From the NCBI RefSeq assembly GCF_000686525.1, contig NZ_JMKT01000011.1:1-64000 (forward strand): a DNA stretch of 64,000 nt, given 5' to 3'. Both the position numbers and the translations under genes were made by a program. Of this stretch, positions 7,131 through 21,831 are shown piece after piece. The notes beneath the pieces are model-generated. The model worked only from the letters and a program-made list of their open reading frames with translations, was not told where the DNA came from and did not search any database. The DNA comes from Desulfonatronovibrio hydrogenovorans DSM 9292. GTDB lineage: Bacteria; Desulfobacterota; Desulfovibrionia; Desulfovibrionales; Desulfonatronovibrionaceae. How positions within the stretch are numbered: position 1 is the stretch's first letter; every line of letters starts with the position of its first letter.

Positions 7131-7460
7131 ATGGACATCACATGCACCAGAACCGACAAGGCACTGATCATTGAGGTCAGCGGCAGGCTGGATACAACCA
7201 CAGCTTCGGATTTTGAAGCCAGGAGCCTGGAAGAGATGGCTGACGCCAAGAATATCATTATTGATCTCAAACAGGTGGAATACGTGAGCAGTGCAGGGCT
7301 GAGGGGTATTCTGTCTGTAGGCAAGAAGGTCAGGGCTGAAGGCGGGACCCTGGTTTTCTGCAACCTCCAGGGCATGGTCCGGGAGGTTTTTGAGATTTCC
7401 GGATTCTCCTCCATATTCACCCTGCACGAGACCAGAGAGAAGGCCCTTGAAGGGTTCTGA
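7131..7460 (+). CDS. STAS-domain anti-sigma factor antagonist
   Basis: 109 residues, a single STAS domain of the SpoIIAA/RsbV class. The phosphorylation site is visible in DLKQVEYVSSAGLRGIL (the second Ser of SSAG is the usual target), with the conserved N-terminal strand ALIIEVSGRLD. In partner switching the unphosphorylated form binds the anti-sigma kinase and frees the sigma or effector. The ATG at 7131 has a GGATCAAGGGA ribosome site. The kinase gene follows with overlap, and a PP2C phosphatase that would dephosphorylate this protein lies two genes on. Confidence 0.92.
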   Translation: MDITCTRTDKALIIEVSGRLDTTTASDFEARSLEEMADAKNIIIDLKQVEYVSSAGLRGILSVGKKVRAEGGTLVFCNLQGMVREVFEISGFSSIFTLHETREKALEGF

Positions 7461-7875
7461 CGAGCTTGATTTCTCCTGGATCGAGCTTCCTGGAACTGGA
7501 GATAATCTGTCCGGATTTCAGGAGTTTGTCCTTGAGCAGGCCTCCCTGGGCAGGATGTCTGCAGGGGTTATCCAGAAAATCGAGCTGGTTGCTGAAGAAA
7601 TCCTGCTGAATATCATCAGACATGCCTATGGCCGGGAGGGGAGGGCCACAGTCAGGATTGGCTGCGCCGCCTCTGGCAGCGGATCTTTTCACATCAGGTT
7701 CATGGACTGGGGTGAGCCTTTCAACCCTCTGGAGCGAACAGACCCGGACACCACCCTGTCGGCTGAAGACCGTCAGGTGGGTGGACTGGGCATTCTGCTG
7801 ATCAAAAAGATGTCCGATCATGTCAAGTACACCAGGCAAGACAGCACAAATATCCTTGATGTCAGTTTCAGCTGA
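7447..7875 (+). CDS. RsbW/SpoIIAB-like serine kinase, anti-sigma type
   Basis: About 142 residues, HATPase_c_2 fold. The N-box ELVAEEILLNIIRHAYG (E, N and H of the ATP site) and the G-box GGLGILLIKKM are visible, with D-W-G in the middle motif FMDWGEPFNP. Expected to phosphorylate the STAS protein and to sequester a partner. The start is uncertain: the only plausible initiator is TTG at 7447, inside the STAS gene, preceded by GAGAAGG. No sigma factor gene is nearby, so the target may be elsewhere or not a sigma factor. Confidence 0.82.
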   Translation: MKGSDELDFSWIELPGTGDNLSGFQEFVLEQASLGRMSAGVIQKIELVAEEILLNIIRHAYGREGRATVRIGCAASGSGSFHIRFMDWGEPFNPLERTDPDTTLSAEDRQVGGLGILLIKKMSDHVKYTRQDSTNILDVSFS

Positions 7876-7957
7876 TGTTTTTCAATCAGCAACAAGGGCC
7901 TTGCTCAAGTCTTTTAGCCCGGGATAAAAAGAGCCCGGTTTGGGATGGAATTCTGGG

Positions 7958-8953
7958 ATGAGTTTTATTTTGAAGTATACACTGATCTTTATTCTCCTGA
8001 TACTGGTTTCTGGAATGCAGGTCCAGGCCGGGACCTTGGATGACAATGGTCTGCAGCAGGTCAGGTTTATTCCCCACTGGGTTCCCCAGGCCCAGTTTGC
8101 CGGGTATTATGTGGCCAAAGACAAGGGATTTTATGCCAGGCGCGGCCTTGATGTGGAAATCCTGCGGGGCGGACCGGACAGTCCGGCAAGTGAATTCCTG
8201 GCCCAGGGCCGGGCTGATTTTGCCTCCATGTTTCTGATCAACGGCCTGATTCTTCGCTCCCAGGGAGTGCCAGTGGTCAATGTCGGGCAGATGGTCCAGC
8301 GCTCAGCCCTGATGCTGGTGGCCAAAAAAGATTCAGGCATCCATTCGCCCATTGACCTCCAAGGCAGAAAAATATCTGTCTGGCCGGAGTTTGCAGCCCA
8401 GCCCCTGGCGTTTTTCAGCCGCTACCACCTCAATGTCACTACTGTGCATCAGGGCTATACCCTGAACCTGTTGCTCATGGATGGAGTCGATGCTGCCACA
8501 GCCATGTGGTATAATGAATACTATGCCCTGATCAATTCCGGTATCAATGCCAATGAACTGACCACATTTTTTTTGGCTGACTATGGCCTGAACTTTCCAG
8601 AAGACGGCCTTTACTGCCACGAATCACTGGTCCGAAATGAACCTGACCTGGTCCGGAACTTTGTCCAGGCCTCAATTGAAGGCTGGGAATACGCTTTTAA
8701 TAATCCTGAACAGGCCCTGGACATGGTCATGGAACGGGTCAATCAGGCCAATCTTCCCACCAACAGGGTCCATCAGAGGTGGATGCTGGACCGGATGAAA
8801 GATATCATCCAGCCGGCCGGATCCGACCGTCCTGCAGGATGGCTGGATGAGAGGGATTACGAGCTGGTTGCAGCCGAGCTTTTTGAGAATGAGGTCATCA
8901 CCCATATAGCGCCCTTCAGGAAATTTTATGTCCCGGATTTCAGCTCACCATAG
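7958..8953 (+). CDS. periplasmic NMT1/THI5-like substrate-binding protein
   Basis: 331 residues: a signal peptide (FILKYTLIFILLILVSG, cleavage near VQA-G), then an NMT1/SsuA-like type II binding fold with the characteristic opening IPHWVPQAQFAGYYVAKDKG and the segment GRADFASMFLINGLILRSQG. Proteins of this family bind thiamine precursors, alkylsulfonates, nitrate and similar ligands for ABC importers. No importer ATPase or permease is adjacent; the gene sits between the anti-sigma kinase and the membrane PP2C phosphatase and overlaps the latter by 26 bp. Inference: it feeds ligand information to that phosphatase. The ATG at 7958 is preferred over the TTG at 7940 for signal-peptide geometry. 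Confidence 0.85.
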   Translation: MSFILKYTLIFILLILVSGMQVQAGTLDDNGLQQVRFIPHWVPQAQFAGYYVAKDKGFYARRGLDVEILRGGPDSPASEFLAQGRADFASMFLINGLILRSQGVPVVNVGQMVQRSALMLVAKKDSGIHSPIDLQGRKISVWPEFAAQPLAFFSRYHLNVTTVHQGYTLNLLLMDGVDAATAMWYNEYYALINSGINANELTTFFLADYGLNFPEDGLYCHESLVRNEPDLVRNFVQASIEGWEYAFNNPEQALDMVMERVNQANLPTNRVHQRWMLDRMKDIIQPAGSDRPAGWLDERDYELVAAELFENEVITHIAPFRKFYVPDFSSP

Positions 8954-10892
8954 AAAGCAGCGTCTTTCATTCAGACTGGCTCTTTTTGTCCTGTCCAGTA
9001 CGGCCCTGTTTTTTCTGGGGGCCTTTGGCTATAATTATCTGTACTCCAAAAAGGTGGTCCTGAAAAACGTCCAGGAAAGCGCTTCCAATCTGACCCACTC
9101 CCTGGTGAATCGCCTTGAAGTCAAGGTTCAGGGTGTTGAGCAGATTCCGCGGTATCTGTCCCTGCGCATTGCCCAGTCCCGTCCCCCTGCCCAGGAGCTG
9201 GAAGACATGATCAAATCCATGCTTAAGGCCAATCCGGAAATATTCGGAGCAACAGTGGCTTTTGAGCCCTATGCAATGGATCCGGATCAGCATTATTTTG
9301 CCCCGTACCTGTTCAGGGACAATGAAGGAGATATTGCTGTTTCAGAACTTGGGGGAGAAGAATACCATTATTTCCACTGGGACTGGTACAGCATTCCCAG
9401 ACACCTGGAAATTCCGGTCTGGAGCGAGCCCTACTTTGATGAAGGCGGAGGGGGCATTCTCATGTCCACCTATTCAGTACCGTTTTACCGGGAAAACCGG
9501 GGCATCAGTCAGTTTCAGGGCGTGGTAACGGCTGATATCTGCCTGGAAGCCCTGGTCCGGCATTTTGCCGATGTACAGCTGTATGACACCGGGTATGCCT
9601 TTTTGATCAGCCGCAACGGCACGTTTGTGGCCCATCCGGATCCGGACAGGGTGATGCGCCAGGGCATATTCAGTGTGGCTGAGGAAATGGGCATGCCTGA
9701 ACTGCGGATCATTGGCCGGGACATGATCCGGGGAGCAAGGGGGTTTGCCCATGTCACCAGCGTTCACACCGGCCAGGACTCCCTGCTTTACTATGACCAT
9801 GTCAAGTCCACAGGCTGGTCTGTCGGGGTGATGATCCCCAAGGATGAAATATACTCGGACATTGTTGCCCTGAACCACACAGTGGTCCTGATCGGAATGG
9901 CCGGGTTTGCCATTCTTTTTCTGGTAATTGTTGCAATTTCCAAGAGTATTACCAGGCCTCTGCACTCCCTGGTCAGCACCACCAGGGAAATCGCCAGGGG
10001 TAATCTGGATGTTGACCTGCCCCGGGTCAGGGTAAATGACGAGGTTGGGCAGCTTTCCCGGTCCGTTGACCAGATGCGTCTGGCCTTGAAGGAGTATATT
10101 TCAGACCTGACAGAAACCACCCGGGCCAAGGAGCGGATCGAAAGCGAGCTTAAGATCGCCCGGAATATTCAGATGAATTTTTTGCCCAAAAAGTTTCCGC
10201 CCTTTCCAAACAGACATGAATTCGACATCTATGCCATGCTGGAGCCGGCCAAGGAGGTGGGGGGGGATCTGTACGACTTTTTCTTCCTGGATGAAGATCA
10301 TTTGTTTTTTTCAGTGGGCGATGTATCGGACAAGGGAGTGCCTGCAGCCTTGTTCATGGCTGTGACCAAGACCCTGATCAAAGGCATTGCCGAGCAGGGC
10401 CTTGAGCCTTCGGACATCCTGGCCCGGGTTAATAATGAACTCTGCCAGGGCAACGATTCATGCATGTTTGTGACTCTGTTCTGCGGAATTCTGGATCTGA
10501 GGACCGGAGAGCTGAAATATTCCAGTGCAGGCCATAATCCTCCGCTTTTGCTCAAAAAGGGGCAGGATCCAAAGTGGCTGCCCCTGCCTCAGGGCATGGT
10601 CCTTGGAGGCATGGAGGATATGGTGTTTAAAACCATGAAAACCAGTCTTGCCCCTGGAGACAAGCTTCTCATGTATACCGACGGGGTGACTGAGGCCATG
10701 GACTCGGATCAGAAGCTGTATTCAGAAAACAGGCTTAAAAGTGAGGCCAGGGCAATGATCCGGGATGAGTCCCAGGATCTGGTCAAGGGCATCCTGAATT
10801 CTGTGCACAGATTTGCCAGGAATGTACCCCAGTCTGATGATATCACCCTGATGGTCCTGGCATACAAGGGCAGTTCAGGATCTGCTTCCTGA
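8928..10892 (+). CDS. Cache-HAMP-PP2C (RsbU-like) membrane phosphatase
   Basis: 654 residues. TM1 is at about 15-37, a double-Cache-type extracellular sensor at about 40-310 (WSEPYFDEGGGGILMSTYSVPF is the usual Cache strand motif), TM2 at 316-337, HAMP at 338-392 and a coiled linker. A SpoIIE/RsbU phosphatase domain covers 423-645 with the metal-binding Asp residues in GGDLYD (445-450), GDVSDKG (464-470), YTDGVTE (583-589) and DDIT (637-640). It should dephosphorylate the STAS protein upstream when its sensor is engaged. The ATG has CAGGAAATTTT before it and overlaps the binding-protein gene, arguing for coupled synthesis. Confidence 0.93.
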   Translation: MSRISAHHRKQRLSFRLALFVLSSTALFFLGAFGYNYLYSKKVVLKNVQESASNLTHSLVNRLEVKVQGVEQIPRYLSLRIAQSRPPAQELEDMIKSMLKANPEIFGATVAFEPYAMDPDQHYFAPYLFRDNEGDIAVSELGGEEYHYFHWDWYSIPRHLEIPVWSEPYFDEGGGGILMSTYSVPFYRENRGISQFQGVVTADICLEALVRHFADVQLYDTGYAFLISRNGTFVAHPDPDRVMRQGIFSVAEEMGMPELRIIGRDMIRGARGFAHVTSVHTGQDSLLYYDHVKSTGWSVGVMIPKDEIYSDIVALNHTVVLIGMAGFAILFLVIVAISKSITRPLHSLVSTTREIARGNLDVDLPRVRVNDEVGQLSRSVDQMRLALKEYISDLTETTRAKERIESELKIARNIQMNFLPKKFPPFPNRHEFDIYAMLEPAKEVGGDLYDFFFLDEDHLFFSVGDVSDKGVPAALFMAVTKTLIKGIAEQGLEPSDILARVNNELCQGNDSCMFVTLFCGILDLRTGELKYSSAGHNPPLLLKKGQDPKWLPLPQGMVLGGMEDMVFKTMKTSLAPGDKLLMYTDGVTEAMDSDQKLYSENRLKSEARAMIRDESQDLVKGILNSVHRFARNVPQSDDITLMVLAYKGSSGSAS

Positions 10893-14941: not shown

Positions 14942-16129
14942 TCATTCCGAGCGCAAAGCCTGGATGGGGGTCAGGTTGGCTGCCTGTCTGGCCGGATAAT
15001 AGCCGAAAAATACCCCCACTGCCGCAGAGACCCCCACACCGATGAACAGGGCTCCGTAGATGATCTGAAATTCCCAGCCGGAAAACCAGGATATGCCGTA
15101 AGAAACACCCAGTCCGATGACTATGCCGATAAGTCCGCCCAGAAGGGACAGGATTATGGACTCCATGAGGAACTGCCCCTGGATGTCCATTTTCTGGGCT
15201 CCCAGGGCCCGGCGGATTCCGATTTCCTTTCTGCGTTCAGCCACTGAAACCAGCATGACATTCATGACTCCGACTCCGCCCACAATCAGGGAGATACTGC
15301 CTATTGCGCCCAGAAGCAGGGTGAACATGCGCATCTGTCTTTCCATATGTTCGATTATCTGCTCTGCACTGCGGACCAGGACCTGCATGGGTCTGGGCAG
15401 GTCTGCAAAATAGTCCTGAATGACTGTTTCAGCCTGTTCATGGGATATGCCCCCGGCCTTGACCGCCAGGATGTTGTTGATCCTGTTCTGGGTGTTCATG
15501 CGCCCGGCAGTGGAAATGGGAATCAGCAGCCCTTCCGAAGCCTCATAGGGTCGCATTCCGCCCAGGGAGGCAGGGGCAAGTTCGCCGACAATGGTGAATC
15601 TGCGGTCCTCAAAGTAGAGGTCCTGGCCCACAAAATCATGGAATCCCTGTTCCCTCATCTTTCTGGCCAGTCCGCCGCTGACAACAGCCTGGTACATGAG
15701 GTAGTCAAGGTCGGAAATGAACCTTCCCTCCACCAGACCCAGCTGGTTAATGTGCATAAAGGACCCGGTCACGCCAATGCCCGGAATGGCCATCCTCTCG
15801 CCCTGAAAACGCAGGTCCCCATAGACTGAAATATATGGTGCAACATCGGTCACTGCCTGGCCTGCATGGGCCAGGGCCATGACCTCTTCCAGTCTGAAGC
15901 CCTGCTCCTGTCCGGAATCTCTTCTGGACCAGCCCAGCTGAATATTCAGGACATCAGTGCCCATTTCCATGAACTGTTTCATGCTTTCGCGCTGGACAAT
16001 GGTCCCTGTGGAGACCAGGGCGATGACCGAGCCGATCCCAATGACAATGCCCAGCAGGGCCAGGACAGTTCTTTGTTTTGAAGAAGCCAGGCTGCGCAGG
16101 GCTTCCCTGATATTGGCCCTGAGCATCAT
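14942..16129 (-). CDS. MacB-type ABC transporter permease
   Basis: 395 residues. Topology is MacB-like: one TM near the N-terminus (TVLALLGIVIGIGSVIALV), a large periplasmic domain (about 45-270), then three TMs. The signature GGVGVMNVMLVSVAERRKEIGIRRALGA precedes the last two TMs. Unlike E. coli MacB, the ATPase is on a separate gene just upstream. Start ATG 16129 overlaps the ATPase stop (ATGA); a second ATG follows directly. Part of a TolC/adaptor/ABC efflux operon. Confidence 0.92.
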   Translation of the reverse strand: MMLRANIREALRSLASSKQRTVLALLGIVIGIGSVIALVSTGTIVQRESMKQFMEMGTDVLNIQLGWSRRDSGQEQGFRLEEVMALAHAGQAVTDVAPYISVYGDLRFQGERMAIPGIGVTGSFMHINQLGLVEGRFISDLDYLMYQAVVSGGLARKMREQGFHDFVGQDLYFEDRRFTIVGELAPASLGGMRPYEASEGLLIPISTAGRMNTQNRINNILAVKAGGISHEQAETVIQDYFADLPRPMQVLVRSAEQIIEHMERQMRMFTLLLGAIGSISLIVGGVGVMNVMLVSVAERRKEIGIRRALGAQKMDIQGQFLMESIILSLLGGLIGIVIGLGVSYGISWFSGWEFQIIYGALFIGVGVSAAVGVFFGYYPARQAANLTPIQALRSE

Positions 16130-16821
16130 GCTGCACTTCCTGCCCGGTCTTTGACAGTCCCGTCCTGCATGTGCACCTTTCGCTGGCACTGGGCCGCAAT
16201 TTTGGGATCATGGGTGATGATGACCATGGTGACCTTTTTTTGTCTGTTCAGCTGGAGAAAGAGATCCATGATGTCCTGACCGACCCTGGTATCCAGGGCC
16301 CCGGTAGGTTCATCAGCCAGAATGATGGCCGGCTGGCCGCACAGGGCTCTGGCTATGGCCACCCGTTGCTGCTGTCCTCCGGAAAGTTCAGAGGGTTTAT
16401 GGTGTCTGCGGTCATCCATGTCCACCAGGGCCAGGTTCTCCCTGGCCTTTTCCACCTGTTCTTTTTCCCGGACTCCCCGGTAGATCAGGGGCAGACAGAC
16501 ATTTTCCAGGGCTGTAAGCTTGGGCAGGAGGTTGAACTGCTGAAACACAAAGCCGATCTTCTGGTTGCGGATGGTGGACAGTTCACGGTCGGACAGAGCT
16601 GAAGTCTCCTGGCCGTTCAGAAGGTAGCGGCCGGAATCCGGGAGGTCCAGAAAGCCCATGATGTTCATCAGAGTGGATTTGCCGCAGCCTGAAGTACCGA
16701 CAATGGCCAGAAGTTCTCCAGCCCTGACCTCAAGGTCTACTCCGTTCAGGACGCTGACCTTGACCGGTCCCATCTGATAGGACTTGAAGATCTGTTTCAT
16801 TGCAATCAGACTCATACTCAC
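16126..16821 (-). CDS. MacB/LolD-type ABC transporter ATPase
   Basis: 231 residues. Walker A is [10 protein letters not shown], the Q-loop lies in [18 protein letters not shown], the signature is [15 protein letters not shown], Walker B is [12 protein letters not shown] and the H-loop THD. The [10 protein letters not shown] and EPTGALD patterns are those of the MacB/LolD/FtsE class that drives mechanotransmission across the membrane, not substrate passage. It overlaps the adaptor gene upstream by four bases and the permease downstream by four, so the three are strictly coupled. Confidence 0.95.
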
Positions 16822-18563
16822 CAGCCTGCCAGCCTGTCTCCGGGGTTGACTCCGGACAGGACTTCAACTGAGCGCAGAGTGGTCATTCCTGTTTGGACCC
16901 TTTGTTCGGCTATGGAGTTGTCAGGCCCAACCATTCTGACCATGGGAGTTCCCTGGAAGGTGCGTACAAAGGAAATGGGAACCAGCAGGGCATCTTTTTT
17001 TTCATAGACCACCACTTCAAGATCAGCTGACATGCCCACCCGGATCAGATCCAGGACCCTTTCCTCTACCTGGGGAAATGTGATCCGGACATCAAATTCA
17101 GCTCCATGCCTGCCTGAGCCGGACACGGCCTGGGCTGAAATGTGGGTGACCACACCTTCAAGGGTGATGCCCGGAAAAGCATCGCCCCTGGCCTGGACAG
17201 GCTGACCCAGAGAAATTTTATGAACATCTATCTCATCTACCCTGGTGCTGACAGTAACCCCGCTCAGATCACCTACAGCAAGCAGGCTTGCTCCGGAATT
17301 TACCATGGAGCCTTTTTCCAGGGATATCTTCTTGTCATCTGCTGCTACCGGCTGGATGACCACCCCGGAGACCGGAGCAGTGATATTTCTGCCTGCCAGT
17401 TGTCTTTCCAGGTTTTCCAGATTGACTTTGGCGTTTTCCCTGTCCATTTGAGCCAGCTCAATATTCTCAGGGCCGGCTTTTTCCCGGACTGATTCAAGTT
17501 CCTCCAGGGCAGACTGGACATCCTCCTGGGAGCTTTCTTTCTGGCGCCTGGCGCTTTCAAGCTCCTGAGCCGGAATCACACCGCTCTGGTAGAGCAGTTC
17601 CGCCTCTTCCAGTTTCCTTTCATTAAGGGCCAGGGTATCTCTGGCCCTGGCCAGGCTTCTGCGGGCCCTGGTCATTTCAGTTCCCGTGTCCCAGTTCAGA
17701 AGATTCTGGAGGTGCTGGTTGGCCTTGATAAAGTCACTCCTGGCGTTGCGCAGTTTTATTTCCAGGCCAGAGGGGTCAAGGGCCAGGAGCAGATCGCCCT
17801 GTTCAACCATCTGGCCAAAGGAAAAGTTACGCTGGGTGATCATGGCCTCAAAGGGCGCAGTTACAACGATTTCCTCCAGAGGCTCCAGCTGCCCGGACAG
17901 GGAGACCGAGGCTGAAAGGGGAGCTGGCTGGACAGTGTGATAAGTTGATTCAGCCTGTCCCGGAGAGGATGTCCGGGCAGATGATTCCTGGATTCTTTTG
18001 ACCAGGGTGTTGCCCTGGAAGTAGTACAGGCCTATGCCCAGAAAAAGGCAGATGATCAGTATGCTTGAGACTACCCGGACCACCTGGACTTTTTTCAACG
18101 CCCGCTGCAAAAGTTCGTTTTTGGCCTCCAGGTCCTGGTAAGCCCGGCCCAGTTTGCGGGCGTCCTCTTCCTGTTTTTTCTGAAGACCCTTGATCTCGGT
18201 GATGTCGGAAAAAACCAGGATGACTCCGCTTTTATCCTGGTGCCCGTCTTCCCGGCCCAGGTAGGAGGAGGTTATGGACAGGATGGCGGTTGAGCTGTCA
18301 GGCCTGGCAAAGTCCACAGTGGAGGTCAGACCGATGCCCTGCTGATATACGGCATCCAGAACCACCTGATTGAACTGGTCGTTGGTTTCAGCCTGGTCCA
18401 GGAAAATCATAGCGAACGGTTTTCCCATGGCCTGCTCAGGATCAAGGCCCAGGATCCGGCCTGCAGCTGAGTTGAACATGATGATCCGGCCCTTGAAATC
18501 CAGGGCCATGACCCCGTCAGCCATGTTTTCCAGAATGTTCTGATAAAATGATTCAGCTGGCAT
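16818..18563 (-). CDS. PAS-domain / HlyD-type periplasmic adaptor fusion
   Basis: 581 residues. An N-terminal PAS domain spans about 8-125 (LENMADGVMALDFKGRIIMF through VILVFSDITEIKG), a coiled coil 124-158 and one TM 161-182. The MacA/HlyD membrane-fusion region comes next: a barrel-sandwich strand LEEIVVTAPFEAMITQ, a long hairpin coiled coil (QHLQNLLNW to NIELAQM), a second lipoyl half (RNITAPVSGVVIQPV) and beta-barrel/MPD strands. The PAS domain must be cytoplasmic and the adaptor periplasmic. Ordinary MacA is about 370-400 residues and has no PAS. Inference: efflux assembly or activity is tuned by a signal sensed in the cytoplasm. AGCAGG ribosome site. Confidence 0.9.
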   Translation of the reverse strand: MPAESFYQNILENMADGVMALDFKGRIIMFNSAAGRILGLDPEQAMGKPFAMIFLDQAETNDQFNQVVLDAVYQQGIGLTSTVDFARPDSSTAILSITSSYLGREDGHQDKSGVILVFSDITEIKGLQKKQEEDARKLGRAYQDLEAKNELLQRALKKVQVVRVVSSILIICLFLGIGLYYFQGNTLVKRIQESSARTSSPGQAESTYHTVQPAPLSASVSLSGQLEPLEEIVVTAPFEAMITQRNFSFGQMVEQGDLLLALDPSGLEIKLRNARSDFIKANQHLQNLLNWDTGTEMTRARRSLARARDTLALNERKLEEAELLYQSGVIPAQELESARRQKESSQEDVQSALEELESVREKAGPENIELAQMDRENAKVNLENLERQLAGRNITAPVSGVVIQPVAADDKKISLEKGSMVNSGASLLAVGDLSGVTVSTRVDEIDVHKISLGQPVQARGDAFPGITLEGVVTHISAQAVSGSGRHGAEFDVRITFPQVEERVLDLIRVGMSADLEVVVYEKKDALLVPISFVRTFQGTPMVRMVGPDNSIAEQRVQTGMTTLRSVEVLSGVNPGDRLAGW

Positions 18564-20523: not shown

Positions 20524-21831
20524 ATGGATGAACGTGCTATGGACAAGGAAAAAGTATTGACTCCTGAAGTGGACCGGCTGCTGAAAAAAATGGAACAGAT
20601 CTGTCATGATCTGGCCTGGAACAAATTTGAGCAGGCAGATGATCTTTTTGAGTTGACCAGACAGAAGAGATACCCGGAACGTATTGCCAAACTGGCTGAA
20701 TCTTTTGGCATGATGCTGGTCAAGGTGGAAGCCAGGGAATACCGCATGGAGGAAATGCTCAAGGAACTGCAGCAGGCCAGAAAGCAGCTGCTCAAAGAGA
20801 ATGCCGGTCTGAAAAAAGGCCTGCAGGAACGTTTTTCCAGCAAGAAAATCATCGGCCGGAATCCTGAAATGCGAAAAATACTGGATCAGGTGGAACGCAT
20901 AGCCGACACTTCAGTCAACGTACTCATCACCGGAGAGACCGGGACTGGAAAGGAGCTGATCGCCAAAGCCCTGCATTATAATTCTCTGCGGGGACCTAGT
21001 CCGTTTGTGGCGGTCAATTGTTCGGCTGTTCCGGAAACTCTGTTTGAAAGTGAGCTGTTCGGGATTGAAAAGGGGGTGGCCACAGGAGTGGCCATGCGCA
21101 AGGGCCTGCTGGAACAGGCCCACAAGGGCACGCTCTTTCTTGACGAAATCGGAGACATGCCCCTGTCCAGCCAGGCCAAGATCCTCCGGGTCCTGGAAGA
21201 GCGGGTGATAACCAGGGTCGGCGGCAAAGAGCCTATACCTGTGGACATCCGGGTGGTGGCGGCCACCAACAGGGACCTTAAGGCTGAAACAGCAGCAGCA
21301 AGGTTTCGGAGCGATCTTTTTTTCAGGCTGAATGTTGTTTCCCTGTGCCTTCCTCCCCTGGCTGAACGGCCGGAAGATCTGCCCCTGCTGGTGAAAAGAT
21401 TCATGGATGTCCATTGCCGGAGCATGAACCGGGCATCCATGAAGGTCAGTCCTGAGGCCATGAGGGCTCTTTTCAGCTATTCCTGGCCGGGTAATGTCCG
21501 TGAACTGGAAAACGAGGTGGAGCGCTTGGTTGCTTTGGCGTATTCTTCAGTTATCAGGCTGGAGGATCTTTCCTTGAGTATCCGGGAGTCAGCCCGGGCC
21601 AGCCGGAAAAGTCCTGCAATCAGCACTGCTCCAGAGACTGGAACAGGAAAAGACCAGGACCTCAAAGACCTTCAGGACAGACCAGAAGCAGAAGTTCAGA
21701 GCCTGGCCAAAGCAGAAAAAAAACTTGTGCAAAGGGCCCTGGAGGTCTCTCAGGGCAACAAGACCCAGGCTGCCAGACTTCTGGGCATCAGCCGGGAAGG
21801 GCTGCGCAAGAAAATGAAAAGGCTTTTCTGA
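20524..21831 (+). CDS. AAA+ enhancer-binding-type regulator with altered GAFTGA loop
   Basis: 435 residues. An N-terminal helical region of about 100 residues is not a receiver and has no Asp pocket. The AAA+ domain has Walker A GETGTGKE, Walker B LFLDEIGDM and the R-finger region RFRSDLFFRLNVV. A Fis-type helix-turn-helix sits at the extreme C-terminus (NKTQAARLLGISREGLRKKM). Loop L1, normally GAFTGA after ELFGHEK, reads GVATGV after ELFGIEK. GAFTGA contacts sigma-54, so this protein may use sigma-54 poorly or differently. The gene is divergent from the efflux operon and probably controls it. Confidence 0.88.
   Translation: MDERAMDKEKVLTPEVDRLLKKMEQICHDLAWNKFEQADDLFELTRQKRYPERIAKLAESFGMMLVKVEAREYRMEEMLKELQQARKQLLKENAGLKKGLQERFSSKKIIGRNPEMRKILDQVERIADTSVNVLITGETGTGKELIAKALHYNSLRGPSPFVAVNCSAVPETLFESELFGIEKGVATGVAMRKGLLEQAHKGTLFLDEIGDMPLSSQAKILRVLEERVITRVGGKEPIPVDIRVVAATNRDLKAETAAARFRSDLFFRLNVVSLCLPPLAERPEDLPLLVKRFMDVHCRSMNRASMKVSPEAMRALFSYSWPGNVRELENEVERLVALAYSSVIRLEDLSLSIRESARASRKSPAISTAPETGTGKDQDLKDLQDRPEAEVQSLAKAEKKLVQRALEVSQGNKTQAARLLGISREGLRKKMKRLF

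Follow-up and report, generated by a model that had tools for sequence, protein, structure and literature searches.

A putatively cytoplasmic PAS domain fused to the periplasmic adaptor of a predicted MacB-type tripartite exporter in Desulfonatronovibrio hydrogenovorans and its relatives

In MacB-type pumps, ATP hydrolysis in the cytoplasm is coupled to work in the periplasm, and the MacA hexamer accommodates the periplasmic part of MacB, as described in the accessible part of PMC5985334. MacA itself is without a cytoplasmic domain, and adaptors of ABC type are controlled mainly by transcription, according to the accessible sections of a 2026 review (PMC13328181). The same sections show that sensing by adaptors of RND systems, for metals or pH, is already known. 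CusB and AcrA are described there as sensors, CusB of metal ions, and in this respect they resemble the adaptor presented here; in these proteins, however, it is the adaptor itself that senses, without a PAS or GAF domain set apart in the cytoplasm. Likewise, cytoplasmic parts of adaptors are not new as such. Sizable cytoplasmic domains, whose structure is little known, are typical of adaptors in ABC and MFS systems, as stated in the available part of another review (PMC8277102), where the term 'PAS domain' has no occurrence. In HlyD the cytoplasmic N-terminal part has a role of its own, since it binds the HlyA signal (PMC13328181, accessible sections) and is required for TolC recruitment and HlyB activation (PMC4446572, accessible sections), but neither of these texts, as far as accessible, reports a PAS or GAF domain. 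By analogy of architecture, the closest precedent is Alg44 of alginate export, an adaptor of the PilZ-TM-MFP type that unites a c-di-GMP-binding cytoplasmic PilZ domain, a TM region and a MexA-like periplasmic domain in a single chain. It differs from the present case in having PilZ instead of PAS or GAF, and its partner is a polysaccharide polymerase, not an ABC pump (PMC3815931, available part).

For the element between sensor and membrane there is precedent in signal transduction. A coiled coil of about 40 residues that adjoins a PAS or GAF domain is known as a signalling helix and has an ERT signature in its central heptad (PMC1592074), and in the LOV kinase YF1 signalling depends on the linker length by heptad (PMC6798134); the words 'transporter', 'hlyd' and 'abc' do not occur in the accessible part of PMC1592074. 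In the open-access literature, to which our search was confined with subscription journals outside its scope, we found no description of adaptors with PAS or GAF domains. What appears new here is the PAS or GAF domain on an adaptor, whereas cytoplasmic parts of adaptors and sensing RND adaptors are already known.

We analysed a 64,000-nucleotide stretch of D. hydrogenovorans DSM 9292 (the window), in which a single intact frame with an ATG start encodes an adaptor of unusual composition (Table 1); frame 1 of the opposite strand across the same interval is interrupted by stops. Pfam assigns PAS to residues 6-121 (48 bits, cut-off 22.6), with PAS_9 also matched, and both HlyD_D23 (residues 219-480, 51.6 bits, cut-off 30) and HlyD_3 (51.6 bits, cut-off 22.2) to the periplasmic part. 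The protein belongs to the broad adaptor subfamily TIGR01730 of NCBIfam (123.1 bits, cut-off 94.9), and Pfam matches with E values up to 0.1 include no PilZ domain, so that it is not a PilZ adaptor like Alg44. Hydropathy reveals a single peak at residues 161-179 and none ahead of the PAS domain. Among 56 homologous adaptors one peak is seen in 43, two in 12 and three in 1, and the additional peaks overlap the TM helix; the exceptions are L168, L174 and L101, each with one peak close to the C-terminus. Because no hydrophobic peak precedes the PAS domain and the HlyD part follows the single TM helix, we infer the order cytoplasmic sensor, coil, TM helix, periplasmic adaptor. An AlphaFold2 model of residues 1-190, built like the full-length model on 3 sequences, agrees with this order (mean pLDDT 76): it predicts a PAS fold and an uninterrupted helix (residues 122-189) that runs from the PAS domain into the membrane. 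In the full-length model (mean pLDDT 54) the periplasmic part is for the most part of low quality and cannot be used. Compared with known PAS structures, the modelled domain reaches a best Z of 13.1 with an rmsd of 2.0 over 99 residues, in a match list from which the absence of a family does not exclude that family. The original prediction of a PAS domain, a coiled coil and one TM helix in front of an HlyD part is therefore borne out by Pfam, by the single hydropathy peak and by the model.

Table 1. Features of the pump locus in the window and of regulatory genes beside related operons; locus names precede coordinates outside the window
Feature	Position	Strand	Basis
PAS - coiled coil - TM - HlyD/MFP adaptor, 581 aa	16818..18563	-	ORF, Pfam, model, relatives
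Cytoplasmic PAS domain (aa 1-122)	18198..18563	-	Pfam PAS 48 bits; model and PDB fold matches
Signalling-helix-like coiled coil (aa 122-162)	18078..18200	-	Heptad length rule and periodicity
Single transmembrane helix (about aa 163-183)	18015..18077	-	Hydropathy peak; continuous helix in model
Periplasmic adaptor part (about aa 209-581)	16821..17939	-	HlyD_D23, HlyD_3, TIGR01730
TolC-family outer membrane factor, 534 aa	18724..20328	-	Pfam OEP 121.4 bits
ABC ATPase (LolD/MacB type), 231 aa	16126..16821	-	ABC_tran 129 bits
MacB-type permease (MacB_PCD + FtsX), 415 aa from GTG	14942..16189	-	Pfam
Sigma-54 activator, divergent; short N-terminal region without Pfam match	20524..21831	+	Neighbour, not core
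STAS + RsbW-type HATPase beside operon	L091:5761-6527, L093:94-850, L177:8440-9226		
STAS + RsbW-type HATPase beside operon	L160:10826-11641, L166:987-1766		

The genes for a TolC-family protein, an ATPase and a permease are clustered with the adaptor gene on the same strand, as had been predicted. The ATPase gene and the end of the adaptor gene share 4 bases; in the permease, many homologues start matching near codon 21. The one-strand order TolC-adaptor-ATPase-permease recurs in 51 of 55 further loci, with gaps below 335 bases in the four-gene loci except for one of 749 bases between TolC and adaptor in L072. Three of the four deviating loci (L073, L173 and L183) end at contig ends, and the fourth, L101, has TolC last. 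L101 (G348:C1) is the second of two PAS-adaptor operons in its genome, and its PAS domain is very divergent. From gene order alone, a tripartite pump of adaptor, transporter and TolC is predicted. The designation 'MacAB-type' that had been given to this pump applies to the fold of the transporter, since the permease matches MacB_PCD (86.9 bits, cut-off 27) and FtsX (69.4 bits, cut-off 25.5), and the TM-anchored HlyD-type adaptor and the TolC partner are further points in common with MacAB-TolC. It does not extend to the adaptor, which scores 40.9 bits with the MacA model NF008606, far under the equivalog cut-off of 342, nor to the gene architecture: ATPase and permease, one chain in MacB, are separate genes here, and the scores with the MacB model NF007826 are 245.3 and 190.5 bits (equivalog cut-off 966).

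The fusion is not confined to the window. Its closest named records are metagenome-assembled genomes of Desulfonatronovibrio sp. (64%) and of a Desulfohalobiaceae bacterium (62%), and 3 of the 18 genomes from the window's family contain the fusion at full length. G012 falls in the window's genus; G010, of the same genus, may possess the pump operon in incompletely assembled form, because it holds an ATPase fragment that is 84% identical. Searches of larger genome samples, which are all drawn from the window's phylum and overlap one another, and in each of which the majority of genomes lack the system, gave matches in 19 of 297 genomes of the window's order (E ≤ 1e-30; 17 with PAS, G120 and G075 without) and in 15 of 395 genomes of the phylum sample (E ≤ 1e-25), the latter comprising the window's own genome, 8 others with PAS (9 genes), the PAS-less G572 and G513, and 4 distant adaptors. 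The corresponding numbers were 10 of 46 in the order of G591 (PAS in 7, none in 3), 7 of 21 in the order of G486 (8 genes, PAS in all) and 17 of 149 in the order of G518 (16 with PAS, 1 with a different N-terminus). Among 72,556 plasmid records there were 15 matches at E ≤ 1e-20, none of which spans 80% of the query or starts before residue 185.

An alignment of 56 homologous adaptors, which does not include the distant matches of G571, G555 and G350 or the second gene of G513, contains 49 with a PAS domain, 1 with a GAF domain in its place and 6 with neither; PAS presence was scored from filled alignment columns, and Pfam itself was run on the window adaptor and on those of L175, L099, L089 and L101. 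The 49 PAS adaptors come from 48 genomes of 14 families in the window's phylum. G25, N31 and D120 are invariant in all 49. Mean pairwise identity, calculated for the first 26 sequences, amounts to 35% in the PAS domain, 31% in the coil and 42% in the adaptor part, and to 12% in the linker behind the TM helix. Many genomes give full-length matches without internal stops. The original prediction had named a sequencing frameshift, or absence from close relatives, as grounds for giving it up; neither applies, and the PAS-adaptor fusion is real, not a frameshift or a one-off.

What the fused domain does is a matter of interpretation. We consider it slightly better than an even chance that the locus encodes a MacB-type tripartite exporter in which the cytoplasmic input domain of the adaptor acts through coil and TM helix on the pump. 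PAS domain and parallel coiled coil would join adaptor subunits in pairs, and a ring of six would then be a trimer of such dimers. A small ligand in the cytoplasm, or else a partner protein, would alter the PAS dimer, and the change would travel along the coil as rotation or supercoiling to the TM helix and the membrane-proximal part of the adaptor. In this way, PAS pairs on the cytoplasmic face would determine how the coil is twisted and, with it, which state the TM helix and the adaptor part next to the membrane adopt. Engagement of the transporter by the adaptor ring would thereby be altered, be it in ATPase stimulation, substrate capture or assembly. Topology, subunit pairing, the direction of the signal and the effect on transport are all points that we infer. 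The foremost alternative is that PAS domain and coil sense nothing and bind no ligand, but form a scaffold for dimerisation, which would hold adaptor subunits together in pairs or brace the ATPase domains. We regard this as unlikely, albeit with appreciable weight, and the properties of the coil, the natural variants and the PAS domain bear on both readings.

The stretch from D120, which sits in a D-x-T/S motif at the end of the PAS domain, to the juxtamembrane R163 (48 R, 1 K) measures 43 residues in 25 of the 49 PAS adaptors, including that of the window, and 50 residues in the other 24; further lengths do not occur. The two linker forms thus differ by exactly one heptad. For the interior of the PAS domain (G25-D120) we counted 9 lengths, and for the region behind the TM helix (R163-G224) 8. 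Hydrophobic residues follow the same period, with values of 0.67/0.61 and 0.85/0.67 at heptad phases 4 and 1, and of 0.37 and 0.30 at the next phase. As a positive control, the periplasmic coiled-coil hairpin shifts only by sevens (33 to 26, 53 to 46; 5 of 49 proteins). Constancy of length alone is not special, because other adaptor segments, for example 250-291 and 511-529, likewise keep one length in 49 of 49; it is the seven-residue jump that is special. In the adaptor tree the proteins with the 50-residue form fall into one supported group (96/98), which also contains the GAF protein and three PAS-less adaptors, so that the heptad rule amounts to essentially one seven-residue event and no other indels. 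The adaptor coil shares with signalling helices, including the linkers of LOV and PAS histidine kinases, the helix of about 40 residues with heptad pattern beside a PAS or GAF domain, and the tie between linker length and heptad that is known from YF1 (PMC1592074 and PMC6798134, accessible parts). It differs in its output, here a membrane adaptor, and in the ERT signature of the central heptad, which was not seen in the adaptors; there, the three positions from -16 to -14 ahead of R163 usually hold E, Q or G, then K, S, T or A, then N. The heptad rule shows a coiled coil, and it supports signal transfer without proving it, because a structural coiled coil would give the same pattern. As the hairpin control illustrates, the rule is accounted for equally by the coiled coil of a scaffold.

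Exchange of the PAS domain points the other way, and loss of it weighs against both readings. In G735 (L175:6445-8472) an adaptor of 675 aa has a GAF domain at the place of the PAS domain (49.4 bits, cut-off 22.4). BLAST matches its residues 12-206 to a GAF-HD protein from a different genome (55% identity) and its residues 206-669 to the PAS adaptor of L091 (47%); the two parts meet where the coiled coil begins, and coil and TM helix are retained. GAF-HD proteins related to this GAF domain are found in L195 and L196. In the tree the GAF adaptor is sister to L091 (100/98), and its coil aligns with the 43-residue form while that of L091 has 50 residues, again seven apart. This replacement, observed in a single genome, by a domain akin to that of GAF-HD signalling proteins points to a slot for inputs more than to a scaffold of one fixed kind. 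PAS-less adaptors of G572, G513 and G692 form a clade (100/100) within an otherwise PAS-bearing group (98/96) and keep the TM helix, part of the coil and the operon, so the domain was probably lost there; the tree places of the PAS-less G120 and G075 are unsure, with long branches. Being absent in 6 of 56 adaptors and probably lost in a clade that retains part of the coil, the TM helix and the operon, the PAS domain appears dispensable, and because PAS-less members keep the operon, a scaffold would not be essential either.

PAS domains of the LOV and PYP type hold their chromophore by a conserved Cys, haem-binding ones such as FixL and DosP use a conserved His ligand, and those that bind FAD non-covalently, such as NifL and Aer, have a conserved Trp at the flavin. 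The window PAS domain has zero Cys, zero Trp and a single His (H108), which lies in a variable loop. The commonest Cys column is occupied in 3 of the 49 PAS adaptors and the commonest Trp column (W85) in 10, all of them in the group with the 50-residue linker. LOV, PYP, FixL and DosP structures rank near the top of the fold searches, a likeness by fold alone, and LOV or PYP chemistry is unlikely because there is no conserved Cys. Haem or flavin sensing, which had been proposed for the window protein, finds no counterpart in these residues, and haem is unlikely for the window PAS domain, which has no conserved haem ligand. The commonest His column, H79, is filled in 22 of 49 proteins, of which 19 are among the 24 with the longer linker, and haem may be bound in that subgroup, where H79 is common. 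H79 lies just before the G strand, a possible subgroup-specific ligand site. The lack of a cofactor residue conserved throughout the 49 PAS adaptors would suit a ligand-free scaffold. So would some of the 12 relatives found by sequence in the PDB, which include WalK, VicK-like, CitA and DcuS PAS domains, those of CitA and DcuS being membrane-proximal and cytoplasmic. Of the closest PAS proteins in the order that are not adaptors, two checked by Pfam, L113 and L103, are PAS-HisKA kinases, which together with the PDB relatives speaks for an input domain. The PAS domain may respond to a small molecule or to a partner protein, or it may be a relay that binds no ligand.

The signal might also run from outside to inside, such that periplasmic pump assembly or substrate load acts via TM helix and coil on the PAS domain and from there on a cytoplasmic regulator. 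We deem this improbable. It draws on regulatory genes near the operons. A sigma-54 activator stands beside the window operon (Table 1), and its N-terminal region of about 100 aa recurs in a pump-adjacent sigma-54 activator of L161 (40%), which fits such a scheme; the same region is also present in L091:4838-5764, an HD protein, and in L091:17220-17699. As a conserved partner of the pump, the sigma-54 regulator was rejected, being absent beside most operons. A scan for the sigma-54 promoter consensus gave 30 matches against a shuffle mean of 43.3, fewer than chance, and no match in the gap upstream of TolC. In L072, from a relative in the window's genus, the permease gene is followed immediately by one for a PAS-GAF-HisKA histidine kinase (L072:2964-5267).

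In L091, L093, L094, L177, L179, L180 and L181 the genes immediately upstream of TolC encode STAS and RsbW-like HATPase proteins; such genes are downstream in L160 and L166, and close by on the opposite strand in L167. We searched HATPase_c_2 in 31 of the 55 genomes with loci, hand-picked after the neighbourhoods had been viewed. Among the matches listed, each genome has 2 to 10 such genes, and 6 of 19 genera have an RsbW-type HATPase, mostly with STAS, no more than 5 kb from the operon, where 0.40 would be expected (Poisson P about 4e-6, for matches picked by eye and an enrichment noticed post hoc). The omitted genomes add 7 more genera, none with the HATPase in the neighbourhoods viewed, which gives 6 of 26 versus about 0.55 (scaled) and P about 2e-5. 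This enrichment is in line with an outside-to-inside signal, but its post hoc origin in a hand-picked set, the 13 of 19 genera without such a neighbour within 5 kb among the matches listed, and the absence of a fused output domain speak against it. The window has a partner-switching cluster of its own at 7131-10892 (+ strand), with STAS, HATPase_c_2, an NMT1-type binding protein and a dCache-HAMP-SpoIIE phosphatase; its STAS/HATPase pair, about 7 kb off, was excluded from the 5-kb count.

An assembly artefact, a frameshift or a neutral fusion has a negligible probability. The one point that would suit it, by way of a dispensable domain, is that 6 of 56 adaptors have lost or lack the PAS domain, while many genomes hold full-length matches without internal stops and the PAS domain is conserved at 35% against 12% in the free linker.

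We therefore return to an input domain that acts through coil and TM helix on the exporter. The original prediction held that the pump may be gated after translation from inside the cell. An influence of the PAS domain at this level is indirectly supported by its conservation, by the heptad-quantised linker and by the GAF swap; 'gated' goes further than these sequence comparisons do. As a more far-reaching and tentative proposal, to which we give somewhat less than even credence, the family may constitute one-component ligand-gated trans-envelope pumps, in which a PAS/GAF slot and a phase-locked coil plus TM helix would switch the exporter by way of paired dimers and with no kinase or transcription step. 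The natural variants, with PAS, GAF or neither and with linkers of 43 or 50 residues, allow one to study how a signal from the cytoplasm may pass through the membrane to reach an adaptor. An adaptor family whose cytoplasmic sensor can be swapped and sits on a phase-locked coil would, if true, imply that an ABC pump is controlled directly, at the post-translational level, by the cytoplasm.
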